NCBI RefSeq assembly: GCF_900232945.1
Contig: NZ_OCTU01000004.1
Location: 1 to 64,000 of the forward strand
DNA: 64,000 nt
Direction: 5' to 3'
DNA from: Urinicoccus timonensis
Lineage (GTDB): Bacteria > Bacillota > Clostridia > Tissierellales > Peptoniphilaceae
Below, piece after piece: positions 28,998 through 50,513 of the stretch. A program made the translations under genes and the position numbers. The notes under the pieces are model-generated. The model made no database searches. It was not told the origin of the DNA and saw only the letters and a list, made by a program, of their open reading frames with translations. Position 1 is the stretch's first letter; every line of letters starts with the position of its first letter.

Positions 28998-29684
28998 TTA
29001 CCTCCAAGTATTTTTAATTTTGTTTAATCTGCCTTCGACCTCACTCATTGAGTGAGTTTTCACTTCTTTATTTATCTTTGTTAAGAGCGAATTTGTAACT
29101 GCTCGCCTTGAAAAGACCATGTTTATAGCTTTTTCATCTTTTCTTTTGTCAGTGAGAGTTCCATCACAAAAACCCATCTCGATGGCCTTATTCTCATCAA
29201 ACCAAGTCTCTCCATCCATTAGATTAGAAATTTCTTCTCTGGATAAACCTGTCTTAATCTCATAGGCATTGATGATTGATTCCTTGACTTCCTTTAACAT
29301 ATCTATGGCTTTTTGCATTTCTTTTGAGTCACCAATGGCTACAGTTAAGGGGTTATGAATCATCATTAATGAAGTAGGACTCATCAAAACTTCAGTTCCT
29401 GCCATGGCAATAACCGATGCTGCTGATGCTGCAAGTCCATCAATCTTAATGGTCACATTTCCCTTGTGCTCTAAAAGCATGGTGTAAATTCTTGATGCAG
29501 CTATGCAATCACCACCAGGGGAGTTAATCCACACAGTTATATCTCCACTTTTGTTTTTTAATTCCTCAAAAAAGAGCCTTGGTGTGATTTCATCATCAAA
29601 CCAAGACTCTTCTGCAATAACTCCATCTATATAAAGTTCATTTGAATCCTTTTTCCAGTTCCAAAATATTTTATTGTTCTTCAT
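28998..29684 (-). CDS. ClpP-like head maturation protease
   Basis: 228 residues. ClpP/crotonase fold with WINSPGGDCIAASRIY, the nucleophile Ser in LAASAASVIAMAG and the catalytic His in MMIHNPLT. It cleaves the capsid delta domain. Overlaps the portal gene by 14 bases and is followed after four bases by the capsid gene. Confidence 0.92.
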   Translation of the reverse strand: MKNNKIFWNWKKDSNELYIDGVIAEESWFDDEITPRLFFEELKNKSGDITVWINSPGGDCIAASRIYTMLLEHKGNVTIKIDGLAASAASVIAMAGTEVLMSPTSLMMIHNPLTVAIGDSKEMQKAIDMLKEVKESIINAYEIKTGLSREEISNLMDGETWFDENKAIEMGFCDGTLTDKRKDEKAINMVFSRRAVTNSLLTKINKEVKTHSMSEVEGRLNKIKNTWR

Positions 29685-30912
29685 TAGGACTTATCTCTTC
29701 TCCTTTCTGCTGATAAAAACTACCTGCCTTATCAAGTGGTAGCATATTTCCATTTACAAGATATAGGTCTCCACCTTCTTCAGCTGATATCCTATCTAGG
29801 TTTTCTAACTCTCTTATGTCATTTGCACTCATCCACCCATTCTGTCTTCCTACAGCATATCCATTCATCCTTGATTCATAGTCTCCTCTTAGAAGTCCAT
29901 CAAGGTTGAATTTAATAAAGTAGGACTCTTTTTCTTTCTTAGTTAGTAGCGCTCTTTCTAGTGATTGCTCCCAACGAACAATCCAAGGATCAAGAGTGTA
30001 TTTAACAAATTCAAGTGACTGCTGTTCTATATTTGAAAATGACGACCTCTCCAAGTCTCCAATCATATGAGGTGGTATTCTAAAAATTCTTGCTATCTCA
30101 TTTAACTGAAACTTTCTTGTTTCCAAAAACTGGGCCTCACTTGGTGCTATAGCTATGGGTTGATATTTCATTCCTTCTTCAAGTACAGCCACTTTGTTGG
30201 CGTTTTTAGGGCCTTGAAAGGCAGCATTCCATGACGCTCTAACTCTTTCTGGGTCTTTAATAATTCCTGGATGTTCTAAAACTCCACCTGGTTGTGCTCC
30301 ATTTTGGAAGAAAGATGCACCATAATCTTCACAAGCCAAAGCCATGCCTATAGCATTTTTAGCCATGGTAATTGGTGAGTAGCCAATAAGTCCATCAAAA
30401 CCAAGTCCTGGAATATGAAGGACATCTTCTTTTAAAAGATAAACTTCTTCTGATTTATGATTGTATTTATAAAAGATTTCTCCATCTTCACTTCTCATTA
30501 CAGTCATCTTGTTTGGCATTAAGGGATAAAGTCCAATAACCTCATTTCTTCCATTACGAATTATCTGAGCATAGGCATTACCCCACAATAAAAGATGTGT
30601 CATTAGTGTTTCTCTAAATACAAATGAAGTCATTTCAGTATTTGGCTCATCGTGTAAAAGAAAATATATGACGTGGTCTTTAGCTTTTTCTTTTGAGTTT
30701 GAATCTCCCCTTTTATATAAATGAAGAGGAAGTCCAGCTAAGGTTTCAGCAAGAACTCTCACACATGAATAAACTGCCGTCATCTGCATAGCAGTAAATT
30801 CGTTGACATTCCTACCTGCTGTTGTTCTCCCAATTAAAAAAGACGATGAAGATATCCTCTCCCCGTCTTTAGGCTTGTCTCTCGACTTGAATATTAAATT
30901 TAAAATGTTTAT
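29671..30912 (-). CDS. Portal protein with an ATA start codon
   Basis: About 414 residues if started at 30912. The HK97-type portal features are clear (MTAVYSCVRVLAETLAGLPL, LEHPGIIKD, FRIPPHMIGD). The usual N-terminal ~40 residues (NILNLIFKSRDK ... GRNVNEFT) are encoded in frame upstream of the first ATG (30789), with aaggagg seven bases before codon ATA at 30910-30912. Homologues are expected to begin with ATG here, so the start has changed to ATA, or initiation occurs at ATA. A 372-residue form from ATG 30789 would lack the N-terminus. Confidence 0.85.
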   Translation of the reverse strand: MNILNLIFKSRDKPKDGERISSSSFLIGRTTAGRNVNEFTAMQMTAVYSCVRVLAETLAGLPLHLYKRGDSNSKEKAKDHVIYFLLHDEPNTEMTSFVFRETLMTHLLLWGNAYAQIIRNGRNEVIGLYPLMPNKMTVMRSEDGEIFYKYNHKSEEVYLLKEDVLHIPGLGFDGLIGYSPITMAKNAIGMALACEDYGASFFQNGAQPGGVLEHPGIIKDPERVRASWNAAFQGPKNANKVAVLEEGMKYQPIAIAPSEAQFLETRKFQLNEIARIFRIPPHMIGDLERSSFSNIEQQSLEFVKYTLDPWIVRWEQSLERALLTKKEKESYFIKFNLDGLLRGDYESRMNGYAVGRQNGWMSANDIRELENLDRISAEEGGDLYLVNGNMLPLDKAGSFYQQKGEEISPNEEQ

Positions 30913-30943
30913 ATTACCACCTCCTTAATTTAGTCATTAAAAA

Positions 30944-30965
30944 AGCACCTACTTTTGTAGATGCT
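30944..30965 (-). terminator. Hairpin closing the 31-kb moron
   Basis: Stem agcacctac / gtagatgct (one mismatch) with a T-run on the minus strand. Sequence resembles the hairpin at 24489-24520. Confidence 0.65.
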
Positions 30966-30971
30966 GGTAAT

Positions 30972-31484
30972 TCATATTAACAAAATAGGATCTGAGCCAT
31001 ACCAAGTCTCTACATCCCTATCATGGTCATCATTATTTGTAGGATCCTCGTACCCTACATCATCAATCCATGAGATTGCAAAGTAATATTTATCTGTTTT
31101 AGTTTCTTTTAATACCAAATAAGATAGACCATTAAGTTTATACTCTATATCGTAATCATTACTTGTTTCCATTAGCCTACTTCCTATATATCCCCAACTT
31201 TCCCCATAGGCTCCAATGGATAGCTTTATCCTTTCTTCCCCATAAAAACTTATACATTCTAGCATCTCCCCAGTTTCTATTTCAGATTTTAAGGATTGAT
31301 TTTTTGTAATTTCACAGGAAATGCTATATTCTTCACATGTTGGTTTAGATATTATTTCTATTAAGTACCTACCTAATAAATTAGGACAAGTCCTATCATT
31401 AGCACACTTTTTATATTCGTAGCTTATTTCTTTGTTGTTGATTTTTATAGATACTTCTCCAAAAGGAGTATTTAGCCTTTTCAT
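30972..31484 (-). CDS. Unrecognised soluble protein (moron between terL and portal)
   Basis: 170 residues, acidic, without membrane segments; four Cys (CANDRTCPN, CEEYSISCE). Not recognised. It has its own TATAAT (31502-31507) and aggagg site and is closed by a hairpin (30944-30965), so it is an independent unit wedged between terminase and portal genes. Likely expressed from the prophage. Confidence 0.55.
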   Translation of the reverse strand: MKRLNTPFGEVSIKINNKEISYEYKKCANDRTCPNLLGRYLIEIISKPTCEEYSISCEITKNQSLKSEIETGEMLECISFYGEERIKLSIGAYGESWGYIGSRLMETSNDYDIEYKLNGLSYLVLKETKTDKYYFAISWIDDVGYEDPTNNDDHDRDVETWYGSDPILLI

Positions 31485-31513
31485 AAAATCCTCCTATTGT
31501 TATTATACCAAAT

Positions 31514-33103
31514 TCAGAATACTATTAACCCCCTATCATCATAAACAGATTCACTTGTATCATTGCCACATCTTATAGCCCTATCAAGTGCCATGATTGT
31601 AGCAATTACTCCATCTATCTTTTCTGTAGATTTTTCCTTATCTGCCTTAATGTTTCCAGCAGGGTCTGTTCGTATAAAGATATTATCCATCATCCATCTT
31701 AGAACTTGATTACCTCCATGGGCTATTTTTCTTTCGAGTGTTAGTTTCATTAATTCTTTTGTTGGTGGAGACATATCTTTAAATCCTTGACCAAAGGGAA
31801 CTACTGTAAAACCCATCCATTCTAAGTTTTGAACCATCTGAACTGCTCCCCATCTATCAAAGGCAATTTCTCTAATGTTATATATCTCACCTAAGTTTTC
31901 GATAAATTTTTCTATGAAACCATAGTGTACTACATTTCCTTCTGTTGTCTGAATGTAGCCTTGTTTTTTCCATAGGTCATAGTTTACATGGTCTCTTTTT
32001 ACTCTAAGGTCAAGATTATCTTCTGGCAACCAAAAGTAGGGTAATATCTGATATTTATCTTCTTCATCTAATGGAGGAAAGACTAAAACAAAGGCTGTAA
32101 TATCTGTTGTCGATGATAGGTCAAGACCTCCATAACAAACTCTGCCCTTTAGTTCATCTTCATTAACAGCAAAATTACATAAGTCCCATTTTTCCATAGG
32201 CATCCACCTAATTGCTTGTTTGACCCACTGATTTAATCTTAACTGTCTAAAGGCGTTCTCTTCAGTTGGATTTTGCTTAGCTGATTCACAGGCTTGTCTT
32301 ACTTTTTCTATTGGAACTGTAATTCCAAGAGACGGATTTGCCTTATGCCATACTTTTTCATCTGTCCAATCATCTTCTCTACCTGCTCCATAAATTACAG
32401 GATAAAAAGTTGGATCAGTTTTTCTGCCTTCAAGTATGTCCACTGCCTTTTGATGTGTTTCGTAGCAGATTGATTTCGTATCTGTTCCTGCAGTTGTTAT
32501 AAGAAAATATAAAGGCTGAGTTCTCGCATCGCCAGACCCTTTGGTCATGACATCAAATAACTTTCTATTAGGTTGGGTATGAAGTTCGTCAAAGACCACA
32601 CCATGAATATTAAATCCGTGTTTAGAATAAGCCTCTGCAGATAGGACTTGGTAAAAAGAATTCGTAGGCTTATATATCATTCTCTTTTGAGATGCTAGAA
32701 TCTTTACTCTTTTAGAAAGGGCTGGAGACATTCTTACCATATCAGCTGCAACATCAAAAACTATAGTTGCTTGCTGTCTATCAGCAGCACATCCATAAAC
32801 TTCTGCTCTTTCTTCCCCATCACCACAAGTAAGGAGGAGTGCTACAGCAGCTGCAAGTTCAGATTTACCCATCTTCTTTGGAATTTCAATATAGGCTGTA
32901 TTGAATTGTCTATACCCCGTATCTTTTACAATACCAAATAAGTCTCTGATGATTTCTTCTTGCCATTCAATAAGCTTGAAGTCTTTTCCTGCCCATCTAC
33001 CTTTTGTGTGTTTAAGACATTCTATAAATGTAACAGCATAATCTGCCTTGTTTTTATCATAATGAGAAGTTTCTATCATAAATTTACTTGGTTTATATTT
33101 CAT
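31514..33103 (-). CDS. terL: Terminase large subunit
   Basis: 529 residues. ATPase domain with IPKKMGKSELAAAVALL (Walker A) near 75 and VVFDELH (Walker B) near 170; nuclease domain with GGLDLSSTTD near 320 and a final DGVIATIMALDRA. It cuts and translocates DNA into the head. Start follows aaggaggt. Unusually far from the small subunit gene (37681-38253): a methyltransferase/SAM-synthetase block lies between them. Confidence 0.94.
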   Translation of the reverse strand: MKYKPSKFMIETSHYDKNKADYAVTFIECLKHTKGRWAGKDFKLIEWQEEIIRDLFGIVKDTGYRQFNTAYIEIPKKMGKSELAAAVALLLTCGDGEERAEVYGCAADRQQATIVFDVAADMVRMSPALSKRVKILASQKRMIYKPTNSFYQVLSAEAYSKHGFNIHGVVFDELHTQPNRKLFDVMTKGSGDARTQPLYFLITTAGTDTKSICYETHQKAVDILEGRKTDPTFYPVIYGAGREDDWTDEKVWHKANPSLGITVPIEKVRQACESAKQNPTEENAFRQLRLNQWVKQAIRWMPMEKWDLCNFAVNEDELKGRVCYGGLDLSSTTDITAFVLVFPPLDEEDKYQILPYFWLPEDNLDLRVKRDHVNYDLWKKQGYIQTTEGNVVHYGFIEKFIENLGEIYNIREIAFDRWGAVQMVQNLEWMGFTVVPFGQGFKDMSPPTKELMKLTLERKIAHGGNQVLRWMMDNIFIRTDPAGNIKADKEKSTEKIDGVIATIMALDRAIRCGNDTSESVYDDRGLIVF

Positions 33104-33169
33104 TTGACCTCCTTCCTCTAAAAATGAGCATAAAAAATACTAGTCTTAGCTAGTTCACTACGAGAAAAA

Positions 33170-33181
33170 GAGCCTTGGCTC
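33170..33181 (-). terminator. Short hairpin with T-run
   Basis: gagcc tt ggctc followed by five T on the minus strand, between the 33195-33482 gene and terL. Confidence 0.45.
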
Positions 33182-33194
33182 ATTTCCTTTATTT

Positions 33195-33482
33195 TTATCT
33201 TTGTCTTGCTATGTTTAATTCTTTGTAAGCTTTCTTAAGTTCTCTATCTAATGTTTCTGATTCTGCAAAAAGTTCAAATTCTTCTTCGTTTAGGTTTCCT
33301 TGTGACTCTTTCCAAAGTTCTTCATGAAGTTGGTCTGCACATTTCTTTGCTGCTCCTGCTATGTCTAAAAGGTTAATTGCTGATCCAATATTTCCTTCTC
33401 TTGATTTTTTTATTGAATTTTCAGCGTATCTTTTGCAGGCTTTGACTTCTGTTTCTAATCTTTCTAGGATATCTTTTTTCAT
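33195..33482 (-). CDS. Unrecognised small helical protein
   Basis: 95 residues, almost entirely charged helix (KKDILERLETEVKACKRYAE). Not recognised. Thirteen bases from the upstream gene, in the same unit. Likely a phage accessory protein. Confidence 0.5.
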   Translation of the reverse strand: MKKDILERLETEVKACKRYAENSIKKSREGNIGSAINLLDIAGAAKKCADQLHEELWKESQGNLNEEEFELFAESETLDRELKKAYKELNIARQR

Positions 33483-33494
33483 GGTAACTCTCTT

Positions 33495-33869
33495 TTATTT
33501 TTGAATCTTTCTTAGAAGTAAAGCTGGCTTTATTTCTTTTTCGTCTTCTTTTGTTTCAAAATTCCAGTTTGTTCTTCCTGTTTCTTGTTCGATTAAGTCG
33601 ACTATGAAATATCCTTTATTTTTGAGTGCTTGTAATTCATTCATAAGTGCTGTGGATTGGTCTGAAATTGTAAATTCTTTAATTTCAAATCTCTCAAGGT
33701 TTTCTATAATTTCTAGGTAGTCTTTTTCAAATCCTAATTCTTCAAAGTCTAGTCTTTCAAGTCCTGCTCTTTTAGCTTTTTCGTAGGCCCAATAAAAGCT
33801 GTAGTTGATTTTGTTTTCTTGGAAATCTTCGTTTGTTTCAAGGTTTTCTAAAATGTCTATTTTTTTCAT
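33495..33869 (-). CDS. Unrecognised phage protein
   Basis: About 124 residues from ATG 33869 (MKKIDILENLETNEDF), preferred over the frame's upstream start because ataaggag precedes it. Acidic; the middle (FSYWAYEKAKRAG-like helix) and C-terminal EQETGRTNWNFE give no family. Confidence 0.5.
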   Translation of the reverse strand: MKKIDILENLETNEDFQENKINYSFYWAYEKAKRAGLERLDFEELGFEKDYLEIIENLERFEIKEFTISDQSTALMNELQALKNKGYFIVDLIEQETGRTNWNFETKEDEKEIKPALLLRKIQK

Positions 33870-33961
33870 TTTCTTTATCTCCTTATCTCTTTTTGTTATG
33901 TACATATTCCCGTACTATCGAAGATAAGTCAAGTAATTTTCGCTTAAATAACAGCTATTTT

Positions 33962-34186
33962 TCAATCTTTATCCGATATTTTTTCTATAATATCTTCCTT
34001 GAAAATCACATTTAATGTTGAACCATTATCCCATTTTACTAGGATTGATCCAATAGAATCCACTCCATAAACTGTACCTAGAGTTCCTTTTGGTGGTGCT
34101 TGTATATCATCCATCTTAATTAATTTAATTCTTGTTCCATCTGGATATACTTCTTTTAAAGTTTTAATCATTTCCTTTGAAATCAT
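33962..34186 (-). CDS. DUF4314-like protein
   Basis: 74 residues. GTRIKLIKMDDIQAPPKGT and GSILVKWDNGSTL are the conserved pattern of the DUF4314 family, small SH3-like proteins of phages. Function unknown. Confidence 0.75.
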   Translation of the reverse strand: MISKEMIKTLKEVYPDGTRIKLIKMDDIQAPPKGTLGTVYGVDSIGSILVKWDNGSTLNVIFKEDIIEKISDKD

Positions 34187-34231
34187 CTAATCACCTCTTA
34201 CATACATATATTGCTCAAATGCTGATTTATA

Positions 34232-35569
34232 TCAAGTCTTATTTGCTGTATTTACAAGGCTTTTAAAGATATATATTGCGCATGGAAGAGCAATCCCATT
34301 GCCCCACATTTTATATTCTGCTGAATCTGTATGAGGATTTTTAAGCCATTTTAATATTTGCTTATCTGTTTTCTTCTTTTTAAGACCTTTTATTTCAGCA
34401 TCCTTATCAAAAACCTCTCTCCAAAAGGATACATCTTCATCCGTTGAATTTTCTATTCCTAAGTCATCACACCAGTAATCTGGAAATCCTTGTAATCTTC
34501 CACATTCTTTTGGTGTTAATCTTCTTACAAGTTTCTGATTAACAAGAGGTGGATCTTTATAATCAGTAGCAACTAAAGAAGGCGATATATTCTTGTCTGC
34601 TTTTGTAAAATGAGAATTCTTGCTCATGGTGTAGATGTCTTCTACTATTGCAACTCCACCTTGATTTCTAGTAGGAGTATTTCCAGATGTATCTATAGTT
34701 CTTGAAACGTCACACTCATAAATATTATGTCTTTCATTTTTTGTATTTTCAGAAGTTTGTCTTATATCATATAAAAGAGGAGGATTACCTGCCTTTGCTC
34801 TTAGTGTTCCAGATAAATCCTCAGATATATCCATTCTTTCTCCACCTTGGTCATTTAAACAGATTGTTTTATTAAAGCTTTCTTTAATGGCTCTGGTATT
34901 TCTTTTTCCTTTCTCGCAGCCCTCTGAAGTATCCCCTGACAAGCTTTTTTGCTCAAATAATATTTCTCTGGAACTTCCTCCATCAAGATCTGCGACAAGG
35001 AAGATTCGTCTTCTTCGTTGGGGCACTCCGAAATATTTAGCATCAAGGACTCTCCATGCAAGGGAAAAATCGTCTCCCAGGATTTCTCCTGCACTTTGCC
35101 ATTTCGATGGTCGAGAAAGTTTAACTGCGGAATTTTTAATTCTTGTAATTTCTTCAAGGACGCATCTAAAGTCTTCTCCTTTGTTTGATGAGAAGGCTCC
35201 TGGCACATTTTCCCATAGTAGGTATCTAGGATACTTACCATTACTTTTACACCTCATTTCTTTTATAACTCTTATTGCCTCATAAAAAAGGTTAGATTTT
35301 TCTCCTTCAAGTCCTGCCCTTTTACCAGCAATAGATAAATCTTGGCAAGGACTACCGAATGAAATGATATCGACAGGTTCGATTTCAGTCCCGTCAATAT
35401 CTTTGATATCTCCTAAATGTTTAACTTGAGGTAGGTTTTTCTGGGTAACTCTTATTGGAAAAGGCTCAACTTCAGATGACCATATAGGTTCTATTCCACA
35501 AAAAATAGCAGCCAAGGGGAATCCTCCACTGCCGTCAAATAGTGAACCTAATCTTAGTTCTTTATTCAT
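34232..35569 (-). CDS. DNA (cytosine-5) methyltransferase
   Basis: 445 residues. Motif I LGSLFDGSGGFPLAAI, catalytic motif IV FGSPCQDLSIAG (Cys about 75), motif VI LWENVPG, motif VIII PQRRRRIFLVADL, and late motifs RRLTPKECGRLQGFP and MWGNGIALP. Target recognition region at about 200-320. No cognate restriction enzyme is seen, so it probably protects phage DNA. Overlaps the next methyltransferase by eight bases. Confidence 0.92.
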   Translation of the reverse strand: MNKELRLGSLFDGSGGFPLAAIFCGIEPIWSSEVEPFPIRVTQKNLPQVKHLGDIKDIDGTEIEPVDIISFGSPCQDLSIAGKRAGLEGEKSNLFYEAIRVIKEMRCKSNGKYPRYLLWENVPGAFSSNKGEDFRCVLEEITRIKNSAVKLSRPSKWQSAGEILGDDFSLAWRVLDAKYFGVPQRRRRIFLVADLDGGSSREILFEQKSLSGDTSEGCEKGKRNTRAIKESFNKTICLNDQGGERMDISEDLSGTLRAKAGNPPLLYDIRQTSENTKNERHNIYECDVSRTIDTSGNTPTRNQGGVAIVEDIYTMSKNSHFTKADKNISPSLVATDYKDPPLVNQKLVRRLTPKECGRLQGFPDYWCDDLGIENSTDEDVSFWREVFDKDAEIKGLKKKKTDKQILKWLKNPHTDSAEYKMWGNGIALPCAIYIFKSLVNTANKT

Positions 35570-37576: not shown

Positions 37577-37680
37577 TTTCTTCCTCTCTTTCTTTAAATA
37601 ATGAAAATGTACTCGTGCCCAACGATAGAAACAAAGAAATCTATGATTTCGTCTTGTTTCATCGGAAGGGTACAAATTTA

Positions 37681-38253
37681 TTACCTCCTTTGCCTTAGTA
37701 ATTTTTCCATCATATCCTCTCCATAGTCCTCATAAACTTCCGTGCAGTTTTCTTTTACAATGTCATAAATCTCATACCATAAAAGATTTGCTGTCTTTTG
37801 AAACTGACTAGACATCTGTACAAACGGAGATGCAATAACTCCTCCAGTAGTAGGATGCTTGCCTAATAGTCCAAATTGACTTATTGCTTCTTCACATTGA
37901 ATGTATCTTGCAAAAGCCTGAGAATAGGATTCTAATAATCTTGGATTAACTAAGTTCTCACAGTTTCTCTGTTTTAACCAAGACCATGTCTCTTTATATA
38001 TTTCATCAGCACCAAGTGGTATTCCATTCTTTTGCTTTGCAGATAGATATTCACTAGGTGCTGGCATATCTGTTCCATCAAGAACTGCACCATCTGGTAA
38101 ATCAACTGCATCTATTTCTTCTGGAGTAAATGTTGGAATATCATTCATTAGTATTTCTACTTTTTTACCTTTTTCTATTTTTTCAGCAGCAGACTGTGGT
38201 TTACCCCCTGCTTTTACTCTTCTTCCACCTCTGTATGTTCCGTCTTTAGCGAT
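37681..38253 (-). CDS. terS: Terminase small subunit (P27 family) with an ATC start codon
   Basis: About 190 residues if started at 38253. The first ATG (38148) misses 35 conserved residues (AKDGTYRGGRRVKAGGKPQS). These are open in frame, and aggaggtgat lies seven bases before codon ATC at 38251-38253, where ATG would be expected (ATG GCT AAA). The body (YLSAKQKNGIPLGADEIYKE, LLGKHPTTGGVIASPFVQ) is typical P27 small terminase, which recognises phage DNA for packaging. Confidence 0.82.
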   Translation of the reverse strand: MAKDGTYRGGRRVKAGGKPQSAAEKIEKGKKVEILMNDIPTFTPEEIDAVDLPDGAVLDGTDMPAPSEYLSAKQKNGIPLGADEIYKETWSWLKQRNCENLVNPRLLESYSQAFARYIQCEEAISQFGLLGKHPTTGGVIASPFVQMSSQFQKTANLLWYEIYDIVKENCTEVYEDYGEDMMEKLLRQRR

Positions 38254-38382
38254 AGTATCACCTCCTATGTTTATTATTTTCTTTAATAGGGCCTTTGAAC
38301 CCGTTTTTTTGTGCGTGAGAGGGCGGCACCGTTGGTATGGAAATCAGCTTTTAAGGTAACGACTCCCCCTCCCCACGTAAAA

Positions 38383-38739: not shown

Positions 38740-38858
38740 TTTATCACTCCATAAAGAAAGCCCTGAAGATTTTATCTCCAAGGCTCGTTTTATTATTCTT
38801 TTGCTATTCTAACTATACTACAACTACTTACTCTCATTCTATCAACTTTACTCTCCAC

Positions 38859-38916: not shown

Positions 38917-38927
38917 GGAGGTTTTTT

Positions 38928-39977: not shown

Positions 39978-41321
<1,344 letters not shown>

Positions 41322-41818: not shown

Positions 41819-42081
41819 AAATCCTCCATTTTTTTAAGTGTTGTATAGTGTAGCTTTATATAAACCTTTTACACGAGAGAATAAAAATAATATATAAAAG
41901 AAAGTAGGCTATAACCATTCACACCATACAAAACGCCTATATTAAGCCATTTTACTGTTAAATCAAGTGTAAATAGTCATGTCTTTTTGTAGTTTAGTGT
42001 ATATATTTTTCACTAATTAAGAAAAACTTTTTTCTATATAGTCATCTTTATTTAGCCTATAAATGCTACACTAAGATACAT
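41819..42081. other. AT-rich gap in the replication module, possible origin
   Basis: No gene seen. It holds two distant inverted pairs: agtgtagc near 41846 with gctacact near 42066, and taggcta near 41909 with tagccta near 42054. The 263-base gap beside the primase-helicase is the largest in the module and a reasonable place for an origin or promoter; this is inference. Confidence 0.3.
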
Positions 42082-44283
42082 TTATAAAAAGTCGTCTACT
42101 GACTCCATTAAATCATTGATGCTTATACCGCTCCATTCAATGCCCCTATTTGTCCTTTTCTTTTCATAACCTTCTGCTATAAGGGCTCGTGAAAAATCTC
42201 TATTATTCCTAATGTATTCTCCATTTGAACCAGCCCACTCACGATAAACTTGGTATAACCTTGCACTCATCTCTTTATAATTTGTACCTTTTATGCATTT
42301 ATCTGAAATAAAATGGTTTATCCAATCATTCTCTTCCTTATATGAGCTTTTAGCATCATCTACAACACTACACTTTGGATATTTAAAGCCTGCATCTATA
42401 TATTCTTTTGCCCCTTCAATCATCCACTGTAGAATTGCCCCACCTGCTTTTTCTAGAAGCTTATCTATATAGTCTGTCTTAGGATTTTTAATGGCAACAG
42501 AAAATGGAGCCACCACAATTCTTCTCCAGGTTCCTCGATCATTAGAGCCCACCTTTGGTAGATGGTTTGTATAGAGGATAGTAGAATGCGTTGGCGTAAA
42601 TGAAAAGGGTGCATAGTATTTTCTTTCTGCTGAAATATCATCAACACTTGCTATCTGCTTTAGCATAGAGCTTGATAATCTTTGACCCTCTTCTGTTTCA
42701 GAGGCTAGAATAAATCTCTTACCACATAACTCAGCAAGATCAACCTTCACATTCTTTGCTCTTGTTGTTAAAGACTCAGCTGGGATTTTACCTGCATAGT
42801 CTCCAAGAACATGAGCCTCTGAATTAAATACTGTAGACTTCCCATTTCCTCCATCTCCATAAGCTATAAGGAGAGCTTCTTCATAAACATGACCTATTAA
42901 AGTCGACCCTGCATGATACTTTAAGAAATTAATAAACTCATTATCTCCACCAGTTACATCTCTTAAAGTAGATAGCCACATATCCATATTATCCTTACTT
43001 GGAGCTAGGGCAGTCATCTTCGTGCAGTAGTAAGACGGGTCATGCTCTTTTATTTCACTTGTTTTCAAATCAATAACTCCAGCAGGTGTATTTAAAATAA
43101 AAGCATCTGCATCTAGTTTCTCATTTTTAACTTCTAACAAGGACTTAGCTAGTTTTAATATTCCAGATACTTTTCCATGATCGTTCATTTTTTTAGCAAA
43201 ATTGAGATAAGCTTTTGCACTATTTGCTTTTAACTTTGCTTGTGCCTTTTCTTCCTTACTTCCCATCATTTCTGCATCTGCTAATTCTTGATAGACCTCT
43301 TTAAATTCAATGCTTGCATTTTCTAGAACTTTTTTAGCAGTCCCCATATAAAGACTCATTACTTTTAGTTCAGAATCTTCCCACTTCCTGCCCGTCCAAT
43401 AAAGCCAGCCTTGAGATATCGTGTAGATAGCTTTATTTTTGTTGTGCTTAGTAAAGATTTCAGCCATTGCTATATCTGTAAGTTTCTCTGGCTTATATTC
43501 CTCATATCTTTCGTTGTATTCTTCAGGTGGAACATAATCTTCACTTGCTGCTACTTTTTTATAAAACTTACAAGCTGACCTCCAGATTTGTTCCAATTCA
43601 TCATCTGGGAGTGGTGGTGAGCAAAGACTAGCTTTTTTATTAAATAATTCTCTTGCATCATCTGTCTTTCCATATCGAATTAGAACCCTACCAGCAAAAT
43701 GGTTCATAGTTGAATTTCTAGAGCCTTGTTGAATTAAGTCTTGAGAGTTATCGAAGTCTTCAAAGTCATCTTTTAGAATATCAGTTATATATTTCCTTCC
43801 CCTAACTATTTCAACAGCAGGGTTCTTTACTCCAAAGAAAAACCTCGCTCCATCTAGGGCATTGCCATCAAAGAAAGTATAGGTTTCCGCCAAGCTTTCT
43901 TTTATTCCTACATATTCAGCTAAATTTGTGATCTTAGGAATTGGGAAATATATGTGCATTCTTGGTCTTGCAGCTTTTCCATTTTTTTCTTTTCTATGGT
44001 TTCTGCTGTAAACTATGGCAAATTTAACTCCGTCAAAGATTCTTTTTAAATCATTAGCTGAAATCCAGTCATCTGGATTTTCTGAATGATCGTTGTCTAT
44101 ATCCATGGGAACACATTCCGACTCTATAAAATTATCATTGGACCTGTAGGAGTTTTTATACTTAGCCATTACATGATCAAAACTTGCGGCTTTCTCAAAT
44201 GACCTAACATCTACTGCATTAACTTCATTTGGATAAACACAGTTTGACTCCACTCCCATTAAGTTTGAGGTATATATTTTCAA
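42082..44283 (-). CDS. D5-type phage primase-helicase
   Basis: 733 residues from TTG 44283 after gggaggt. The N-terminal third is the primase-like part (VPMDIDNDHSENPDDW carries the acidic motif). The D5_N region lies in the middle, and the SF3 helicase follows, with GDGGNGKSTVFNSE (Walker A) near 475 and ILASETEEGQ near 525. Primes and unwinds phage DNA. Confidence 0.92.
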   Translation of the reverse strand: MKIYTSNLMGVESNCVYPNEVNAVDVRSFEKAASFDHVMAKYKNSYRSNDNFIESECVPMDIDNDHSENPDDWISANDLKRIFDGVKFAIVYSRNHRKEKNGKAARPRMHIYFPIPKITNLAEYVGIKESLAETYTFFDGNALDGARFFFGVKNPAVEIVRGRKYITDILKDDFEDFDNSQDLIQQGSRNSTMNHFAGRVLIRYGKTDDARELFNKKASLCSPPLPDDELEQIWRSACKFYKKVAASEDYVPPEEYNERYEEYKPEKLTDIAMAEIFTKHNKNKAIYTISQGWLYWTGRKWEDSELKVMSLYMGTAKKVLENASIEFKEVYQELADAEMMGSKEEKAQAKLKANSAKAYLNFAKKMNDHGKVSGILKLAKSLLEVKNEKLDADAFILNTPAGVIDLKTSEIKEHDPSYYCTKMTALAPSKDNMDMWLSTLRDVTGGDNEFINFLKYHAGSTLIGHVYEEALLIAYGDGGNGKSTVFNSEAHVLGDYAGKIPAESLTTRAKNVKVDLAELCGKRFILASETEEGQRLSSSMLKQIASVDDISAERKYYAPFSFTPTHSTILYTNHLPKVGSNDRGTWRRIVVAPFSVAIKNPKTDYIDKLLEKAGGAILQWMIEGAKEYIDAGFKYPKCSVVDDAKSSYKEENDWINHFISDKCIKGTNYKEMSARLYQVYREWAGSNGEYIRNNRDFSRALIAEGYEKKRTNRGIEWSGISINDLMESVDDFL

Positions 44284-44670
44284 TTAGGCTACCTCCCTTA
44301 TATATTGAATCTTCATTTTTCTCTTCTCAGCAACTCTTATTTCTTCTGCCATTCCAGGACTTATGTTGTCACCAAAGACCCAGACTTCTTCACATTTTCC
44401 AAGAAGGACATAATTAAAATGCATAGCAAGTCTTCTCTCACTTTCATCACTCATAAACTGAGGAAATAAAAGATGTGGTGCTATGGGAATATTTCCTCTA
44501 TCCAAGGCATAGCGAGAATAAGTTCTTGCCTTAATTACATTATTTTCAACATCTCCAGAAAATGGACTGCAGATATATACCAAGGGATAGTACCTTTTCT
44601 CTGTATTTTTAATTGCTTGATAAGGAGTGGGGTCCTTGCACCCACTCCTGTTGTATAATTCTTTATTCAT
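44284..44670 (-). CDS. DUF4406/DUF7768-like protein
   Basis: 128 residues. VYICSPFSGDVENNVIKART and the late WVFGDNISPGMAEEI match a family related to nucleoside 2-deoxyribosyltransferases. Possible role in phage nucleotide metabolism. No gap to the primase gene. Confidence 0.72.
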   Translation of the reverse strand: MNKELYNRSGCKDPTPYQAIKNTEKRYYPLVYICSPFSGDVENNVIKARTYSRYALDRGNIPIAPHLLFPQFMSDESERRLAMHFNYVLLGKCEEVWVFGDNISPGMAEEIRVAEKRKMKIQYIREVA

Positions 44671-44863
44671 AAATATCCCTCATTGTTTCACTACAAGTAT
44701 TACAGTAAACTTGAGTAGAAAATAAATCTCCATCTTCTAATACTTCATTTAAGTCTACTCGAACTTCTTTTCCACACTTTGGACAGGTGCAAAAGACATT
44801 CTCATCATTTATTTCAATACTTATTTCCATGGCATCATTGATTTTTTCTTTAACATAAAACAT
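44663..44863 (-). CDS. Small zinc-ribbon protein
   Basis: About 66 residues from ATG 44863 (MFYVKEKINDAMEI), preferred because gaggaggt lies upstream. Two Cys pairs, CTCPKCGK and CNTCSE, form a zinc ribbon. Function unknown. Confidence 0.6.
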   Translation of the reverse strand: MFYVKEKINDAMEISIEINDENVFCTCPKCGKEVRVDLNEVLEDGDLFSTQVYCNTCSETMRDIYE

Positions 44864-44876
44864 AAATAAACCTCCT

Positions 44877-46808
44877 CTAATCTTTCTTATAAAATTCGCT
44901 TTCAAATCCATCTGCATCTAAGATAAGTCCAGGTGCCCAAATAGGAACAACGGACATAATTTGATTTACTTCCTCGATACTAGATGAATCACTTTCTATA
45001 ACAACTTCATCATGAATATGCATGACGATATTAAATCCTTTTTTCTCAAGTCTCATCATAGCCTCAGCTAGGATATCTCTGGCTATTGCTTGAACTATAT
45101 TCTCTACAAATTTACCACCATAGGATTCTATCTTGTCCCATTTATTTCCTACTACGATTCCTTCATAGACAATTGACTCTCCACCAAATCGATTCGTCCC
45201 GATTTTTGCCTTTGGATAAGCAAGCCTTCTTTTTGAAGGTAGCTCTATGAAAAGAATGCCTTTTTCATAGCTAATAACTAGGCTCTTATATTCTTCTTTA
45301 GTTCTAGTCTTTACAACTCTTTTTACTACAGAATCAATATCCCACCAAAGACTTACTATATTTGGATTTGCCTCTCGCCAGGAATCGACTATTGATTGAA
45401 GTTCATCTTCAGATAAACCCATATCAATTCCACCCATTGCCTTAAGAGCACCTAAGGCCCCTTGATAACCACAGGCTAAAGTAGCAATCTTCCCTTTTTG
45501 TCTAAGATGTCCGTTTACTCCATGCTTTTCAACTGGCACTCCAAACATCCTAGATGCCGTTCTACAATAGATGTCTTCTCCATTTTCAAATGCATCCAAT
45601 ACCCACTGTTCTCCTGCAAGCCAAGCAAGAACACGAGCCTCTATTGCTGAAAAATCTGAAATAATAAACCTGGTGCCTTCTTTTGCTATAAAGGCCGTCC
45701 TTATTAGTTGGGATAAAATATCAGAGGGTGATTTATATAAAATTTCCATAGTTTCATAATCTCTATTTTTTACAAGATTCCTAGCTATGTCTAAATCTTT
45801 TAGATTGTTTCTTCTTAAGTTTTGAACTTGAATAAGCCTTCCTGAGTACCTTCCAGTTCTATTTGCTCCATAGAATTGAATCAGACCTCTTGCTCGATTG
45901 TCTTTTCCTTTTACATTTTTCATAGCATCATATTTCCTAACTGAAGACTTAGATAACTCTTGTCTAAGTTCCAAGACTTCTTTTATATCTCCTTCAGCAT
46001 TTTTAAGAGCAGACTCTACATCTTTTTTAGCTAAGGAATCTATCTCTAAGCCTTTTTTATTAAGCCAATCTTTTAGTTGTAAGGGAGAGTTTGGATTCTC
46101 AAGACCAGTTAATCCTATGGCTCTATCCATATTTTCTTCTCGTAAAATTTCATCGAATTTAATAGCTGATTCAACTAAAGCTTCATCAATCAAAATTCCT
46201 CTGTCATTTATGTTTTGGTCTACCCAGTAGTTTTCCCATTCTGAATAAGGCATAGGAAAGGCTGATAATTTTTTCTTTATAGCCATTTCTGTTTCCACAT
46301 CCCTTTGGTTGTATTCCTTAAAGGTAAACCACTTTTTTAAATCGTGATGTGGTAGATTTCTTGTTCTCATACCATTGATTTTAGTAGGTTTACATGGAAT
46401 AGAAAAATATTTAATAAGAGCCTTGCCTTCATTCATCTTTTGCTTATCTAGTTTCAAAACCTCCCCGACTTTCTCAAGCGATAGAGGTAGACCAAGATAG
46501 GCTGACCAAATCATAGTGCAGTACCAACCTTGAGGTTTTAGTCTCTTACCTAAAAACCTAGATAGACACACCCTTTCAAAATTCGCGTTAAAAGCCCACT
46601 TTTCTATGCTTTCATCACTAAGTGCTGATAATATTTCTTTAGGAATAAGCTCTCCATTTACCAAATCTATGACTTGTACTTTCTGATCATTTAATGAATA
46701 TGCAAAGAGGAGGATTTCAAAATCCTCACTCTCGGCATATTTGTATACACCACTTTTGCCTAAATCAATTGAAGAGAATGTTTCAAGATCTATGGACAAT
46801 CTCTTCAT
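44877..46808 (-). CDS. Family A DNA polymerase
   Basis: About 643 residues from ATG 46808 (MKRLSIDLETFSS). The 3'-5' exonuclease has DLETFSS near 8 and the polymerase motifs DFSAIEARVLAWLAG (motif A), a motif-B region around KIATLACGYQGALGAL, and IHDEVV (motif C). Replicates phage DNA together with the primase-helicase. Confidence 0.94.
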   Translation of the reverse strand: MKRLSIDLETFSSIDLGKSGVYKYAESEDFEILLFAYSLNDQKVQVIDLVNGELIPKEILSALSDESIEKWAFNANFERVCLSRFLGKRLKPQGWYCTMIWSAYLGLPLSLEKVGEVLKLDKQKMNEGKALIKYFSIPCKPTKINGMRTRNLPHHDLKKWFTFKEYNQRDVETEMAIKKKLSAFPMPYSEWENYWVDQNINDRGILIDEALVESAIKFDEILREENMDRAIGLTGLENPNSPLQLKDWLNKKGLEIDSLAKKDVESALKNAEGDIKEVLELRQELSKSSVRKYDAMKNVKGKDNRARGLIQFYGANRTGRYSGRLIQVQNLRRNNLKDLDIARNLVKNRDYETMEILYKSPSDILSQLIRTAFIAKEGTRFIISDFSAIEARVLAWLAGEQWVLDAFENGEDIYCRTASRMFGVPVEKHGVNGHLRQKGKIATLACGYQGALGALKAMGGIDMGLSEDELQSIVDSWREANPNIVSLWWDIDSVVKRVVKTRTKEEYKSLVISYEKGILFIELPSKRRLAYPKAKIGTNRFGGESIVYEGIVVGNKWDKIESYGGKFVENIVQAIARDILAEAMMRLEKKGFNIVMHIHDEVVIESDSSSIEEVNQIMSVVPIWAPGLILDADGFESEFYKKD

Positions 46809-46983
46809 AGCTATCACTAAGCTTTGTTAATTCTGCTAAATTATTTTTTCTATCTTCTTTTATTTGTTTTTCTATTTTTCTGATATCTCTATCTAGTTCT
46901 TTTAGTTGAGCTTGTAAAAATCCAAGCTTATACCATAAAAAGGACCAAATAGCTAAAACTATTGCTGTAATTAAATAGTCCAT
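46783..46983 (-). CDS. Small membrane-anchored protein
   Basis: 66 residues. One N-terminal membrane helix (LITAIVLAIWSFLWYKLGFL), then a charged coiled coil. Overlaps the polymerase start by 26 bases. Not recognised. Confidence 0.5.
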   Translation of the reverse strand: MDYLITAIVLAIWSFLWYKLGFLQAQLKELDRDIRKIEKQIKEDRKNNLAELTKLSDSYEEIVHRS

Positions 46984-46992
46984 TTCTGCCTC

Positions 46993-47538
46993 CTATGCTA
47001 AGAAATCTTCGTCATCATCGTCCATGGCATCAAAGTCATCTGCTGCATTAGACCTATTTCCTAGAGGTTGACCATCTCTTAGTTTTTGAATATTCCCTAG
47101 CCCAACCGCTACGCCCTTATTGCCATTTACATTGTAGGCATAGAAATTAAGGGATACCCTTGCATAAACCCCTGAGTAGACTTCACTTCTATCAAGAATA
47201 GGTTCTACATTTCTATCTACAATTTGAGGTGCTGTCATAGAGTTGGCATTTAAGAAATATGCATCTGCATATGCTTCATCATCTTTTTCTGTATCGCCAT
47301 CTCTTAATGGTAGTTTGATAGCTTTCTTATTTGGTTTCTTTCCATTGAATTTAGAAAGTCCTTCATCAATAGCAGCATCTACTGCCTTTTCAATTTTCTC
47401 AATTGTCTTTTGGTCGCTCTTTGGAATAATGACAGATACTGAGTATCTTTCTTTACCACCATTGATTGACTTTGGTTCCCATCCGTTAAAATATGATAAT
47501 CTAACTTCACCTGTAATTACTTTTGTTTTATTTTGCAT
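46993..47538 (-). CDS. DUF2815 ssDNA-binding-like protein
   Basis: 181 residues. GEVRLSYFNGWEPKS, YSVSVIIPKSD and VSLNFYAYNVNGNKGVAVGL follow the DUF2815 pattern. The acidic tail (DDFDAMDDDDEDFLA) is like that of SSB proteins. Probably the phage single-strand binding protein. Confidence 0.82.
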   Translation of the reverse strand: MQNKTKVITGEVRLSYFNGWEPKSINGGKERYSVSVIIPKSDQKTIEKIEKAVDAAIDEGLSKFNGKKPNKKAIKLPLRDGDTEKDDEAYADAYFLNANSMTAPQIVDRNVEPILDRSEVYSGVYARVSLNFYAYNVNGNKGVAVGLGNIQKLRDGQPLGNRSNAADDFDAMDDDDEDFLA

Positions 47539-48025
47539 AATTTTCCTCCTGAATTATATTTATATTCGCAAATTTACCATGATACTTTTTAGCTGCTTTG
47601 TTGTACGCCATTGCAGCGTCTACTTCTTTATCAAAACTACCTAAATAAATGTGTTTGCCATTTACTCTGATGCACGCTTGCCAACATCTATCTCTAACAT
47701 GAAAAGTAACTCCCTTATATTTAGAGTGAGAATTCTTGTTAAACTTGTTTCTATTAAAAGAATTTTCTTGTCGAGTTGCTAATCTTAAATTAGATCGTCT
47801 ATTATCTAATCTATTGAGATTTATATGATCTACTTCCATATTTTCTGGTGCATTTAGAATCTGTCTATGCATTCTAATATGGCGAGATTTATTCTCTGGA
47901 TTGTGTCTACAGGCATATAACTGACCTGGATGACCGCTGGCAAACCACTTATATTTTGATAGTTCTTTGTAATCTTCATCGTCAACTAATGCATAAAGTC
48001 CTTTTGTAAGTGGTATTTTTTTCAT
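47528..48025 (-). CDS. HNH/AP2 homing-type endonuclease
   Basis: 165 residues. HNH core VDHINLNRLDNRRSNLRLAT and an AP2 DNA-binding domain (YKGVTFHVRDRCWQACI ... YLGSFDKEVDAA). Its ends overlap both neighbours (11 and 4 bases) in a conserved DUF2800-DUF2815 pair, the pattern of a free-standing homing gene that slipped in without disrupting them. Confidence 0.87.
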   Translation of the reverse strand: MKKIPLTKGLYALVDDEDYKELSKYKWFASGHPGQLYACRHNPENKSRHIRMHRQILNAPENMEVDHINLNRLDNRRSNLRLATRQENSFNRNKFNKNSHSKYKGVTFHVRDRCWQACIRVNGKHIYLGSFDKEVDAAMAYNKAAKKYHGKFANINIIQEENYAK

Positions 48026-49140
48026 TCCTTAACCACTCCAAATTCTTCTTTAACATTGTCAATTTTTACTTCTTCTCGCTTGTCATCAATGCTTACTAAG
48101 GTTAACTTTCCTTTTGGTTTTTCTAATAAGTCGCTGATATTTTCATCAAAGACCTTCTTACCTAGTAACTTAGTCATAGCTGTGATGCCAAGTATCTTTT
48201 CTTCAAAGGGATTGAATCCCAGTTCTTTTACTTTGTTTATAACTTCATCTTCATCTCTGTATCTTCGATTAGACCTGCCCTCAACGAGTTTTAGGTCCTT
48301 CCATCTATGGCCCCTCATTGCTTTTTCTAAAGCATAGGCCTTGATATCTTTGACCCATTGTTCCATTTCGTCTAGTCTTGGTAAAATCTTTTCAATTTCA
48401 TCGTCAGATAGTTCTGGTGGTAGGGTAAATTCATCTTGTGCTAGTTTCAGATTCTCTTCTGCCCTTTTCCTGCATTTATTCTTAGCTTTGCAGAAGATGC
48501 ACCATTCTCCACAAGAGAATTCCCCTTCTCCTTTGTAAGCTTTCTCTGCAATCTCTCGTACAGATTCTCCCCACTTATAAAGTTCTATCTTTTTAATTTC
48601 ATAAGTTGAGATATTGCATCTTCTTGGTTGATAGATGTGAAGAACTACTTTCTCGATATCATAAATTCCATCAAAGAGAGTCAATGCACCAAGTCCGTAT
48701 AACATGAGTTGTGAATTCTCTTTAGCGTCTACTAAAACTCCTTGACCATACTTTAGATCTATTACATGAAGTTCTTTTCCTCCAACAACTACACAGTCAG
48801 CAGTTCCAAAGGACTCCTTAACATAGTCTGATAGGTCAAGTCTTTCTTCCACAAAGACGGCTGGGCTTTCGTACCTACTTATAACTTCCGTTACATATGA
48901 GGCATATCCTTCAGTTAGTTCATCCATTTCCTCATCATAAAAATCCAAATCGTCAGTAGGATCTTTTACATCTAAACCTAATAACTTTTTAAGTTTATAC
49001 TCTGCTAAGGCATGAGCTGATGTGCCTTCAAGCGCATAAGGACTAACCTCATCTTCATATTTTTGAGAGAGCCTAACACTTGGTGGACAGTGAATCCAGC
49101 GTGAACTACTTGATGCAGATAATATTGCGTGATCGCCCAT
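48022..49140 (-). CDS. DUF2800 Cas4/RecB-like nuclease
   Basis: 372 residues. EGTSAHALAEYKLKKLL near 40, ELHVIDLKYGQGV near 130 (PD-(D/E)xK core D...K) and the cluster Cys of CGEWCIFCKAKNKC near 205 fit the DUF2800 group of iron-sulfur nucleases. Acts in phage replication or recombination. Confidence 0.85.
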   Translation of the reverse strand: MGDHAILSASSSSRWIHCPPSVRLSQKYEDEVSPYALEGTSAHALAEYKLKKLLGLDVKDPTDDLDFYDEEMDELTEGYASYVTEVISRYESPAVFVEERLDLSDYVKESFGTADCVVVGGKELHVIDLKYGQGVLVDAKENSQLMLYGLGALTLFDGIYDIEKVVLHIYQPRRCNISTYEIKKIELYKWGESVREIAEKAYKGEGEFSCGEWCIFCKAKNKCRKRAEENLKLAQDEFTLPPELSDDEIEKILPRLDEMEQWVKDIKAYALEKAMRGHRWKDLKLVEGRSNRRYRDEDEVINKVKELGFNPFEEKILGITAMTKLLGKKVFDENISDLLEKPKGKLTLVSIDDKREEVKIDNVKEEFGVVKE

Positions 49141-49436
49141 CAGAGTTTCTCCACATCTGCTATCAAGTCTTTATAGTTACTTGGTTCAATGTCAGATAAC
49201 TTTTTAGCTCCATACTTTTCTAAGAGTTCTCTTATCTTAGCTGTATGGCCTAATCTTGATTTGTCGGCTAGTATTTTTCTAACATCTTCAATCTCATAGG
49301 TCTTTTCTTCTTGTTTTACCTTTTCTTCTTTAGGCAGTTCCTCATCACTTTCTAGTGCTGTGAGAAAGACACCTATACTAGATGCAAGATTCTCTGCATC
49401 TTCTTTGATTTCCATTAGTAGCTTTATTCTTGACAC
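49140..49436 (-). CDS. Unrecognised phage protein ahead of DUF2800
   Basis: 98 residues from GTG 49436 after aaaggag. The N-terminus is helical; the C-terminus IRELLEKYGAKKLSDIEPSN resembles small phage proteins sometimes labelled rRNA-biogenesis-like, a label without experimental basis. One-base overlap with DUF2800. Confidence 0.6.
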   Translation of the reverse strand: MSRIKLLMEIKEDAENLASSIGVFLTALESDEELPKEEKVKQEEKTYEIEDVRKILADKSRLGHTAKIRELLEKYGAKKLSDIEPSNYKDLIADVEKL

Positions 49437-49542
49437 TTTTTTCTCCTTTCTCTGGTTGCATTAATTCCATAGCTATCTTCTTGGCAACAATTGAGATGGC
49501 TATTAAACTTTCTGCCATCTGTTCGTTTTTTACTAAGTCCAC
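49378..49542 (-). CDS. Small phage protein downstream of the repeat array
   Basis: 54 residues from GTG 49542 (MDLVKNEQMAESLIA), chosen because aaaggaggaacaaa precedes it. It is open in the same frame as the upstream LTQ/CPKEYE repeats, so a longer fusion product starting at TTG 49749 is also possible. Not recognised. Confidence 0.55.
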   Translation of the reverse strand: MDLVKNEQMAESLIAISIVAKKIAMELMQPEKGEKSVKNKATNGNQRRCRESCI

Positions 49543-49548
49543 TTTGTT

Positions 49549-49740
49549 CCTCCTTTCATACTCCTTGGGACATTCATTAAATTTTTGAGTAAGATTTCTC
49601 CTCTCATACTCCTTAGGACATTTGCCTTCATTTTGAGTAAGTTGTATCTCCTCATACTTCTTAGGACATCCTGTTTGTATTTGAGTAAGACTTCTTCCCT
49701 CATATTCCTTAGGACATCTAGTAAGTTTTTGAGTAATTAT
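49549..49740 (-). repeat. Four 48-base tandem repeats encoding LTQ(x)4CPKEYE units
   Basis: Units at 49740-49693, 49692-49645, 49644-49597 and 49596-49549 read ITQKLTRCPKEYEGRS, LTQIQTGCPKKYEEIQ, LTQNEGKCPKEYERRN and LTQKFNECPKEYERRN. The ends of each unit are conserved while the middle four residues vary. Third-position changes in the conserved codons (CCT/CCC, GAA/GAG) suggest selection on the peptide. They lie between the sigma-like gene and the GTG-started gene, all in one open frame. Confidence 0.8.
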
Positions 49741-50255
49741 TTTTTCCAAGGTCTCAATTTCTCTTGAATCTTTGGTAAATGCTTATTTTTGATGTTATTA
49801 ACTGTTTTTTGGGATATTCCTACTACTTCTGCGACTTCTCTTTCTTTCATTTCGTAGATAAAAAGTAGTTTTAGAACTTCTTTATCTCTTTCAGAAAATT
49901 CACTAATGACTTCTAAGAATGCTTCTTCTAGAAGTTTGTACGTTACTATGTCCTCAGTATTTTTAACGCTAGTTACTTCAAAGTCGTATTCTTCTTCAGC
50001 AACATCAAGGGATAAGGGAAGACCATATTCTTTTGTTTCGACAAAGCCTGTTTCTAAACTTCCTGCTTGGACATAGTTTCCATTTTTCTCAGCCACTGTT
50101 TTAATTCTGTCTTTATCCTGTAGTTCTTCTAAATTCTTGTAGGCTCTTTGGATTCTCTTTTTTTCTCTCCAGATTGGTTTCATATATTCTTTGTAGACTT
50201 CTTCACTAACTTCGATTTCTTTGCCATTTATTTCTAAATATCTTTTCTTTGCCAT
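49737..50255 (-). CDS. Sigma-70-like/helix-turn-helix transcription factor
   Basis: 172 residues. The C-terminal region-4-type helix-turn-helix is clear: FSERDKEVLKLLFIYEMKE then EVAEVVGISQKTVNNIKNKH. No region 2 is evident, so it may be an ArpU/sigma-like regulator. It follows a strong nested hairpin and is the head of the early replication operon. Confidence 0.82.
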   Translation of the reverse strand: MAKKRYLEINGKEIEVSEEVYKEYMKPIWREKKRIQRAYKNLEELQDKDRIKTVAEKNGNYVQAGSLETGFVETKEYGLPLSLDVAEEEYDFEVTSVKNTEDIVTYKLLEEAFLEVISEFSERDKEVLKLLFIYEMKEREVAEVVGISQKTVNNIKNKHLPKIQEKLRPWKK

Positions 50256-50281
50256 CTTTTGCCTCCTTGCAAAATCTCTAG

Positions 50282-50373
50282 ATCCGCAAGAAGGCCATCC
50301 GTAAAAACAAAAAAAGACGGCAATAGAAAACCATGGTTTGGTTTTCCGACTGCCGTCTAGCGTTCTTGCGGAT
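50282..50373 (-). terminator. Nested double hairpin, probable regulated terminator
   Basis: An 11-bp perfect outer stem (atccgcaagaa 50282-50292 / ttcttgcggat 50363-50373) encloses an inner hairpin (agacggca 50315-50322 / tgccgtct 50351-50358, with gaaaacc/ggttttc further in). On the minus strand the inner hairpin is followed by TTTTTTT, a strong intrinsic terminator. The outer stem could compete with or stabilise it. Confidence 0.75.
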
Positions 50374-50378
50374 ATCTT

Positions 50379-50513
50379 TTACTTATTTAAAATTTTAATT
50401 TCGCCTTTAACTACATAGGCTATGGTTGTACTTTTACCTCGCCTGATAGTTAGCTTTTTCTTGTCTTCACTAATATCACAGACTCTTTTTCCTTCTTTGT
50501 TTCTTATTTCTAT
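50379..50513 (-). CDS. 44-codon phage protein with an ATA start
   Basis: IEIRNKEGKRVCDISEDKKK, then TIRRGKSTTIAYVVKGEI and a TAA at 50379-50381. Similar small proteins are common early phage genes. Codon ATA (50511-50513) stands exactly seven bases after aaggagg of the strong site aaggaggtgat, with no ATG, GTG or TTG in frame. The third gene in this prophage with this feature. Confidence 0.6.
   Translation of the reverse strand: MEIRNKEGKRVCDISEDKKKLTIRRGKSTTIAYVVKGEIKILNK

Follow-up and report, generated by a model that had tools for sequence, protein, structure and literature searches.

The 64,000-nucleotide stretch of Urinicoccus timonensis DNA analyzed here (the window; contig NZ_OCTU01000004.1, positions 1 to 64,000) carries a prophage in which the genes for the portal and for the small terminase TerS, together with a short early gene, appear to begin with ATA, ATC and ATA, respectively. 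This raises the question of whether such codons, collectively AUH (AUA, AUC or AUU) in the message, are true starts, and what they might do on the packaging genes of a phage. The original prediction had placed each of them exactly 7 nt behind the GGAGG of a strong Shine-Dalgarno sequence (SD), with no ATG, GTG or TTG upstream in frame, and had offered two explanations, namely AUA/AUC initiation that holds expression down or a mutational process that has hit start codons. Both observations were borne out by the open reading frame (ORF) listing and the sequence itself: the spacing is 7 nt at all three predicted positions, all on the minus strand, and no in-frame ATG, GTG or TTG occurs between the upstream stop and any of the three codons. 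In the ORF listing the portal frame has its first canonical start at 30789 and the TerS frame at 38148, and the early-gene frame has a TAA five codons upstream of its ATA. We consider it probable (roughly 0.78) that all three are genuine weak starts of the type known from infC, the gene for initiation factor 3 (IF3), and that they would throttle packaging genes.

Each site combines a workable SD spacing and the lack of a canonical in-frame start upstream with complementarity to the anti-SD that continues past the AGGAGG core. The longest matches, of 9 nt for the portal, 10 nt for TerS and 13 nt for the early gene, compare with a mean of 6.1 nt for 46 other starts of the element taken from a hand-picked gene list (Mann-Whitney p = 0.003); one ATG gene of the element (14772) has an 11-nt match. 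Across 800 kb of the nearest genome an AUH codon behind an extended SD of at least 8 nt is found at four sites, which are the three phage genes and one position inside another gene.

To define the evolutionary behavior of these codons, relatives of the portal were gathered from IMG/VR and from GTDB genomes (one per species), and relatives of TerS from IMG/VR and the flanks of the GTDB portal loci, the best 80 being taken from each list. Start-codon counts use only loci fetched by protein similarity, which were then reduced to unique full-length sequences, as contigs may occur in both collections. Among 160 loci with a portal match, 24 were dropped because the alignment fell short of residue 1 or lacked upstream DNA; three of the 133 with a TerS match were dropped, including L109, which has an indel. 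The portal codon is ATA in 44/44 loci of at least 85% identity and in all 27 unique full-length sequences, and also in the four frames too short for the unique set (L050, L178, L179 and L201). The TerS codon is ATC in 47/47 loci of at least 85% identity, in L132 at 73%, and in 30/30 unique full-length sequences. The hosts named for the portals of this clade span at least six genera, Anaerococcus, Peptoniphilus, Aedoeadaptatus, Urinicoccus, Fenollaria and Lagierella. Outside the clade, the codon aligned with the portal ATA is ATG in 86 loci, GTG in 4 and TTG in 1 (91/91 canonical), and that aligned with the TerS ATC is ATG in 51, GTG in 22 and TTG in 9 (82/82 canonical); these counts leave out alignments that stop short of residue 1 (23 portal, 3 TerS) and the portal of L238, a misalignment whose ATG lies two codons upstream. 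The tabulation proposed by the original prediction therefore gives ATA/ATC throughout the clade and ATG, GTG or TTG outside it. On the clade trees we counted no change at the start codon in either portal or TerS, against averages of 3.87 and 4.76 changes, respectively, at four-fold degenerate sites. The AGGTGG of the portal SD is invariant in 27/27 unique relatives and the GGAGGT of the TerS SD in 30/30; the portal SD core is altered in L167 and L168. Separately, hosts named Urinicoccus, Anaerococcus, Aedoeadaptatus and Peptoniphilus carry portals 96-99% identical to that of the window (L161-L175 and L177-L180), which suggests that the prophage has recently spread widely.

The real starts could instead be the downstream ATGs at 30789 and 38148, with the part upstream of them untranslated, and depositors do pick such ATGs, as in the TerL of Streptococcus phage Javan630, Erysipelothrix phage phi1605 and NatCom_21982. 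However, for the codons from the weak start up to the next ATG the ratio of non-synonymous to synonymous change (pN/pS) is 0.088 in the portal and 0.136 in TerS, next to 0.054 and 0.087 over the remainder of these genes. Some loci in the sets behind these ratios (3 of 33 for TerS) had been retrieved with DNA patterns that prescribe the first two start-codon bases. As judged from these substitutions, purifying selection acts in both genes on the codons ahead of the next ATG. With the upstream residues conserved at ratios of 0.09 to 0.14, outgroup genes that start canonically at the codon aligned with the ATA or ATC, and a conserved extended SD 7 nt from the ATA or ATC, the downstream starts, which the original prediction had named as the outcome that would overturn it, are highly improbable.

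The proposal that prophage decay or a mutational process ruined the three start codons is hardly credible. Some hosts do harbor decayed copies of TerS (L383, L387 and L393), yet these retain ATC, and another remnant (L381) has ATT; the pattern used to find L381-L393 required AT but allowed any third base. The original prediction saw in random decay no obvious explanation, and indeed intact relatives carry the same codons, and the trees show no change to ATG. Of the two options it offered, AUA/AUC initiation that holds expression down agrees with the data, whereas the mutational process fails, as the codons are kept in all clade relatives read, across six or more host genera, despite turnover at synonymous sites.

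Beyond what the original prediction covered, the AUH device recurs on TerL of related phages, a similar site lies on infC of the host family, and Staphylococcus aureus provides a precedent (PMC13009471, in excerpt). In 59 outgroup loci (1.02 Mb) AUH follows an extended SD of at least 8 nt at 19 sites, 16 of them at TerL and 3 inside genes, against 158 canonical starts; in 21 clade loci all 37 such sites belong to TerS (18) or the portal (19). Among 68 unique TerL genes with an RKL-type N-terminus the start is ATA in 25, ATC in 15, ATT in 11, TTG in 13, ACG in 2, CTG in 1 and ATG in 1, i.e. AUH in 51/68; this count leaves out 49 loci without the motif, mostly of the window's clade, and 27 in which the N-terminus was not reached. 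In 27 of the 51 AUH genes no ATG, GTG or TTG occurs back to the in-frame stop. The RKLKKYKPT that follows the TerL start is conserved while synonymous sites change freely (40 unique segments), and a tree of 92 unique TerL genes requires at least 15 start-codon changes, with one parsimony reconstruction placing 12 changes among non-ATG codons and 3 to ATG. Two TerL genes, L054 and L205, have an apparent ACG start 8 nt after GGAGG with RKLKKY next, and both have in-frame canonical codons further upstream.

Considering those loci of L161-L240 in which TerS, TerL and portal are all readable (45), AUH or ACG stands on one or more of them in 39, comprising 17/17 in the window's clade and 22/28 outside it, and ATG stands on all three in a single locus. 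The window's clade has ATG on TerL and weak starts on TerS and portal, and the related phages show the reverse; this swap is one event in the data. The TerL ATG of the clade (33103) lies at a short distance from its GGAGG, and this spacing may also weaken initiation. Of 60 phage regions, 12 annotated ones were opened: Javan630, phi1605 and NatCom_21982 have ATC at the conserved TerL site, with TerL annotated 12 codons past it, and the remaining 9 have ATG, GTG or TTG at the site or adjoining it. In a general viral sample of AAGGAGGTGATNNTAT (at least 80 loci), 58 of the 80 matches listed have ATG and 22 have AUH, 5 of the latter with frames of at least 40 codons.

The early gene extends the pattern to a small protein. 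It was recovered at 21 loci, some of them one contig seen twice, which reduce to 7 unique sequences, all with ATA behind AAGGAGGTGATCC. For most of these loci the search pattern already specified part of the start; a mid-gene pattern that leaves the start free recovers the same 10 viral contigs. Since the copies differ by 9 distinct synonymous codon changes and 1 non-synonymous change, the early gene appears to be translated. Conservation of the AUH codon is thus seen for portal and TerS, and for the early gene in 7/7 unique but little diverged sequences. No match was found in PHROGs or Pfam, none in a plasmid search with the early region, and no relative outside the clade in 61 genomes or in protein and viral-contig searches; the 44-residue protein has two matches in a search of 5.8 billion proteins, both with a differing N-terminus. 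One database copy, P0001, is annotated with 62 residues, and its N-terminus suggests, from the protein alone, a base lost before the SD, with the frame opening into the terminator. On the 3' side of the gene (50281-50376, minus strand) nested inverted repeats with an internal U-run are visible by eye, such that the gene is bracketed by terminator-like sequences.

A phage-encoded factor acting in trans, either a special initiator tRNA or a Com-like zinc-ribbon protein (50590-50754), might be thought to enable these starts. The candidate protein, of 54 residues, lies directly upstream of the early gene and has a weak match to the Com-type family of phage translational regulators phrog_6417 (E 1.6e-5). 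Against such a factor, the only tRNA genes that ARAGORN detects in the window are two for tRNA-Pro at 60.9-61.0 kb, none being a gene of the phage; the sequence 5' of the portal SD differs between clade members; and the host machinery seems to use AUH starts already. The last point follows from infC of the host family: in 27 of the 28 genes parsed, AUH is the sole start-type codon 4-11 nt past a core of GGAGG or GGGGG (30 loci from 60 genomes searched, 2 unparsed; the one parsed gene with no candidate has an N in the codon). As the host family's infC carries such sites, the host probably already uses them, and we regard a dedicated phage factor as very unlikely. General use of AUH starts by the host was likewise considered and rejected, there being no excess outside infC: in 800 kb of the nearest genome 11 candidates (TerS and the early gene included) stand behind GGAGG, and a reversed control gives 12; the count is rough, as its filters miss the known portal. 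A terminator-like hairpin resembling that of the portal occurs in many but not all clade leaders. When the other clade leaders are inspected by eye, the fold that pairs the portal SD in the window (z -4.0) shows no conserved equivalent, and hence we place no weight on it; the TerS leader folds no better than shuffled sequences (z 0.34).

The closest known system is infC, whose AUU, AUA or AUC start serves IF3 autoregulation; as in the phage genes, AUH lies behind a strong SD, usually GGAGGTG. Unlike the phage genes, which do not encode IF3, infC is a host gene within a feedback loop, and any effect of IF3 on the phage genes would therefore be one-way. The further precedents are given here as excerpted from the papers cited. 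In S. aureus, ccpN (AUA), cvfC1 (AUU), infC (AUA) and citZ (AUA) have an extended SD with AUH (Kohl et al. 2026, PMC13009471), and in reporters cvfC1, ccpN and citZ yield about 10% of the AUG output in poor medium, ccpN rising to as much as 30% in rich medium. They share the extended SD and AUH with the phage sites, but the set as excerpted is chromosomal, with no phage structural gene among it. In Streptomyces, sigR has a GTC start, formerly misannotated, behind AGGAGGTG, which sets a protein ratio and is repressed by IF3 (PMC5472188); like the phage sites it has a non-canonical codon behind AGGAGGTG, but the codon is GTC and the case is a single, actinobacterial host gene. A survey of related genomes found 1 of 61,358 ancestral AUG starts switched to AUU, and weak GUG and UUG starts that tend to be paired with a stronger SD, though not in all phyla (PMC5622118). 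For phage SPP1 the excerpts give AUG, GUG and UUG starts only. We found no account of AUA, AUC or AUU starts on phage packaging genes in the open-licence PMC literature, as represented by its search listings.

How might such starts work? Drawing on published work, initiator tRNA would read AUA or AUC by mismatch, a pairing that IF3 normally rejects, and an SD helix of 9-13 nt would keep the 30S subunit in place long enough for initiation at a low rate. Among the products of the late operon, TerS, TerL and portal are made in few copies. AUH starts would accordingly most likely act as a fixed throttle on low-copy packaging proteins, with the weak start residing on TerL in related phages and on TerS and portal in the window's clade; in the early gene the same device would be applied to a small protein. 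Regulation responsive to IF3 may add to this throttle. A stronger version, in which the AUH starts let packaging genes sense IF3, is possible but unlikely: a drop of free IF3 relative to ribosomes, upon stress or induction, would raise portal, TerS and the early gene and couple assembly to the state of the host. The similar site on infC of the host family, the IF3-repressed start of sigR and the response of the ccpN AUA to medium are consistent with this, but the cvfC1 AUU shows no medium effect and the citZ AUA a modest one only (PMC13009471, in excerpt), and TerL also uses TTG, CTG and ACG, for which weakness is a better description than sensing of IF3. Rather doubtful, too, is the proposal that a large group of temperate phages keeps weak AUH starts on one or more of the genes TerS, TerL and portal, shifting between genes in evolution, as an IF3-gated checkpoint by which the free IF3 of the host, besides transcription, sets packaging capacity.

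Several observations weigh against genuine weak starts that throttle packaging genes. The bare pattern AGGAGGTG-N5-ATH occurs four times in the nearest genome (1.8 Mb), three of these being portal, TerS and the early gene, and equally four times in a control read backwards, and hence the case for the three sites rests on conservation. Some four-fold sites are invariant as well (18/118 or 15% in portal, 2/41 or 5% in TerS), and therefore invariance of the start codon by itself is moderate evidence; in the early gene, whose copies are nearly identical, it is weak evidence. Synonymous change (pS) is also lower near the portal start (0.20 vs 0.35). In 24 of the 51 AUH TerL genes an in-frame canonical codon lies upstream, which in 22 is a GTG inside the SD, and outside the clade the TerL genes of L219, L227, L233 and L236, which lack the RKL motif, start with ATG. 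Because TerL of the clade uses ATG, low expression of all three packaging genes does not follow, and stoichiometry as the reason for a throttle is something that we infer.

The element itself encodes domains PF10926 (DUF2800), PF10991 (Enc34 ssDNA-binding, which we take to be the former DUF2815), PF00476 (DNA polymerase I), PF00176 (SNF2 helicase) and the VRR-NUC domain PF08774 (27.5 bits, cut-off 23.8), besides TerL (PF20441/PF03354), portal (PF04860), Clp-protease (PF00574) and major capsid protein (PF05065). These match all nine core genes shared by Ca. Heliusviridae as excerpted (PMC9226167), the main text of which contains no occurrence of 'start codon'. Records with a Ca. Heliusvirales taxonomy line are found among the portal and TerL matches, and the element is likened to Ca. 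Heliusviridae by domain content alone. It also contains two large serine recombinases in tandem (11237-12811 and 13210-14772) with a small frame between them, and at the upstream edge of the prophage (52001-58000) the G+C content climbs from about 0.34 to 0.44-0.46. The coordinates of the initiation sites and their genes are collected in Table 1.

Table 1. Coordinates of the putative non-AUG initiation sites, their genes and TerL in the window (MFE, minimum free energy).
Feature	Position	Strand	Basis
Portal gene from ATA, 413 codons, HK97-type	29671..30912	-	PF04860 E 5.3e-130; TIGR01537 E 8.2e-98; phrog_12 E 4.7e-150
Portal ATA, putative start codon	30910..30912	-	sequence; clade and outgroup comparison
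Portal extended SD AAGGAGGTG	30918..30926	-	9-nt anti-SD match, GGAGG 7 nt from start
Terminator-like hairpin and U-run before portal	30939..30965	-	sequence; fold
TerL, ATG start 4 nt after GGAGG	31514..33103	-	PF20441 E 7.5e-50; gene bearing AUH in related phages
TerS (small terminase) gene from ATC, 190 codons	37681..38253	-	phrog_83 E 4.3e-30
TerS ATC, putative start codon	38251..38253	-	sequence; clade and outgroup comparison
TerS extended SD AGGAGGTGAT	38257..38266	-	10-nt anti-SD match
Early gene from ATA, 44 codons, stop 50379-50381	50382..50513	-	codon changes in relatives
Early-gene ATA, putative start codon	50511..50513	-	ATA in all unique relatives
Early-gene SD AAGGAGGTGATCC	50515..50527	-	13-nt anti-SD match; sequence
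Terminator-like hairpin directly 5' of early-gene SD	50533..50575	-	leader MFE -30.6 kcal/mol, z -6.0

These results indicate an annotation error, in that gene finders tend to shorten or skip genes with AUH starts, as seen in TerL of 3 of the 12 annotated phage regions opened and in the scarcity of the early protein in databases. Weak infC-type starts have been described for a few bacterial genes; what is new, on the sequence comparisons presented here, is their maintenance on the packaging genes of one phage group in many hosts. If this is true, one orthologous gene in this group comes with a natural set of weak starts (ATA, ATC, ATT, TTG, CTG and ACG), with which the trade-off between extended SD pairing, IF3 and the level of expression could be tested.

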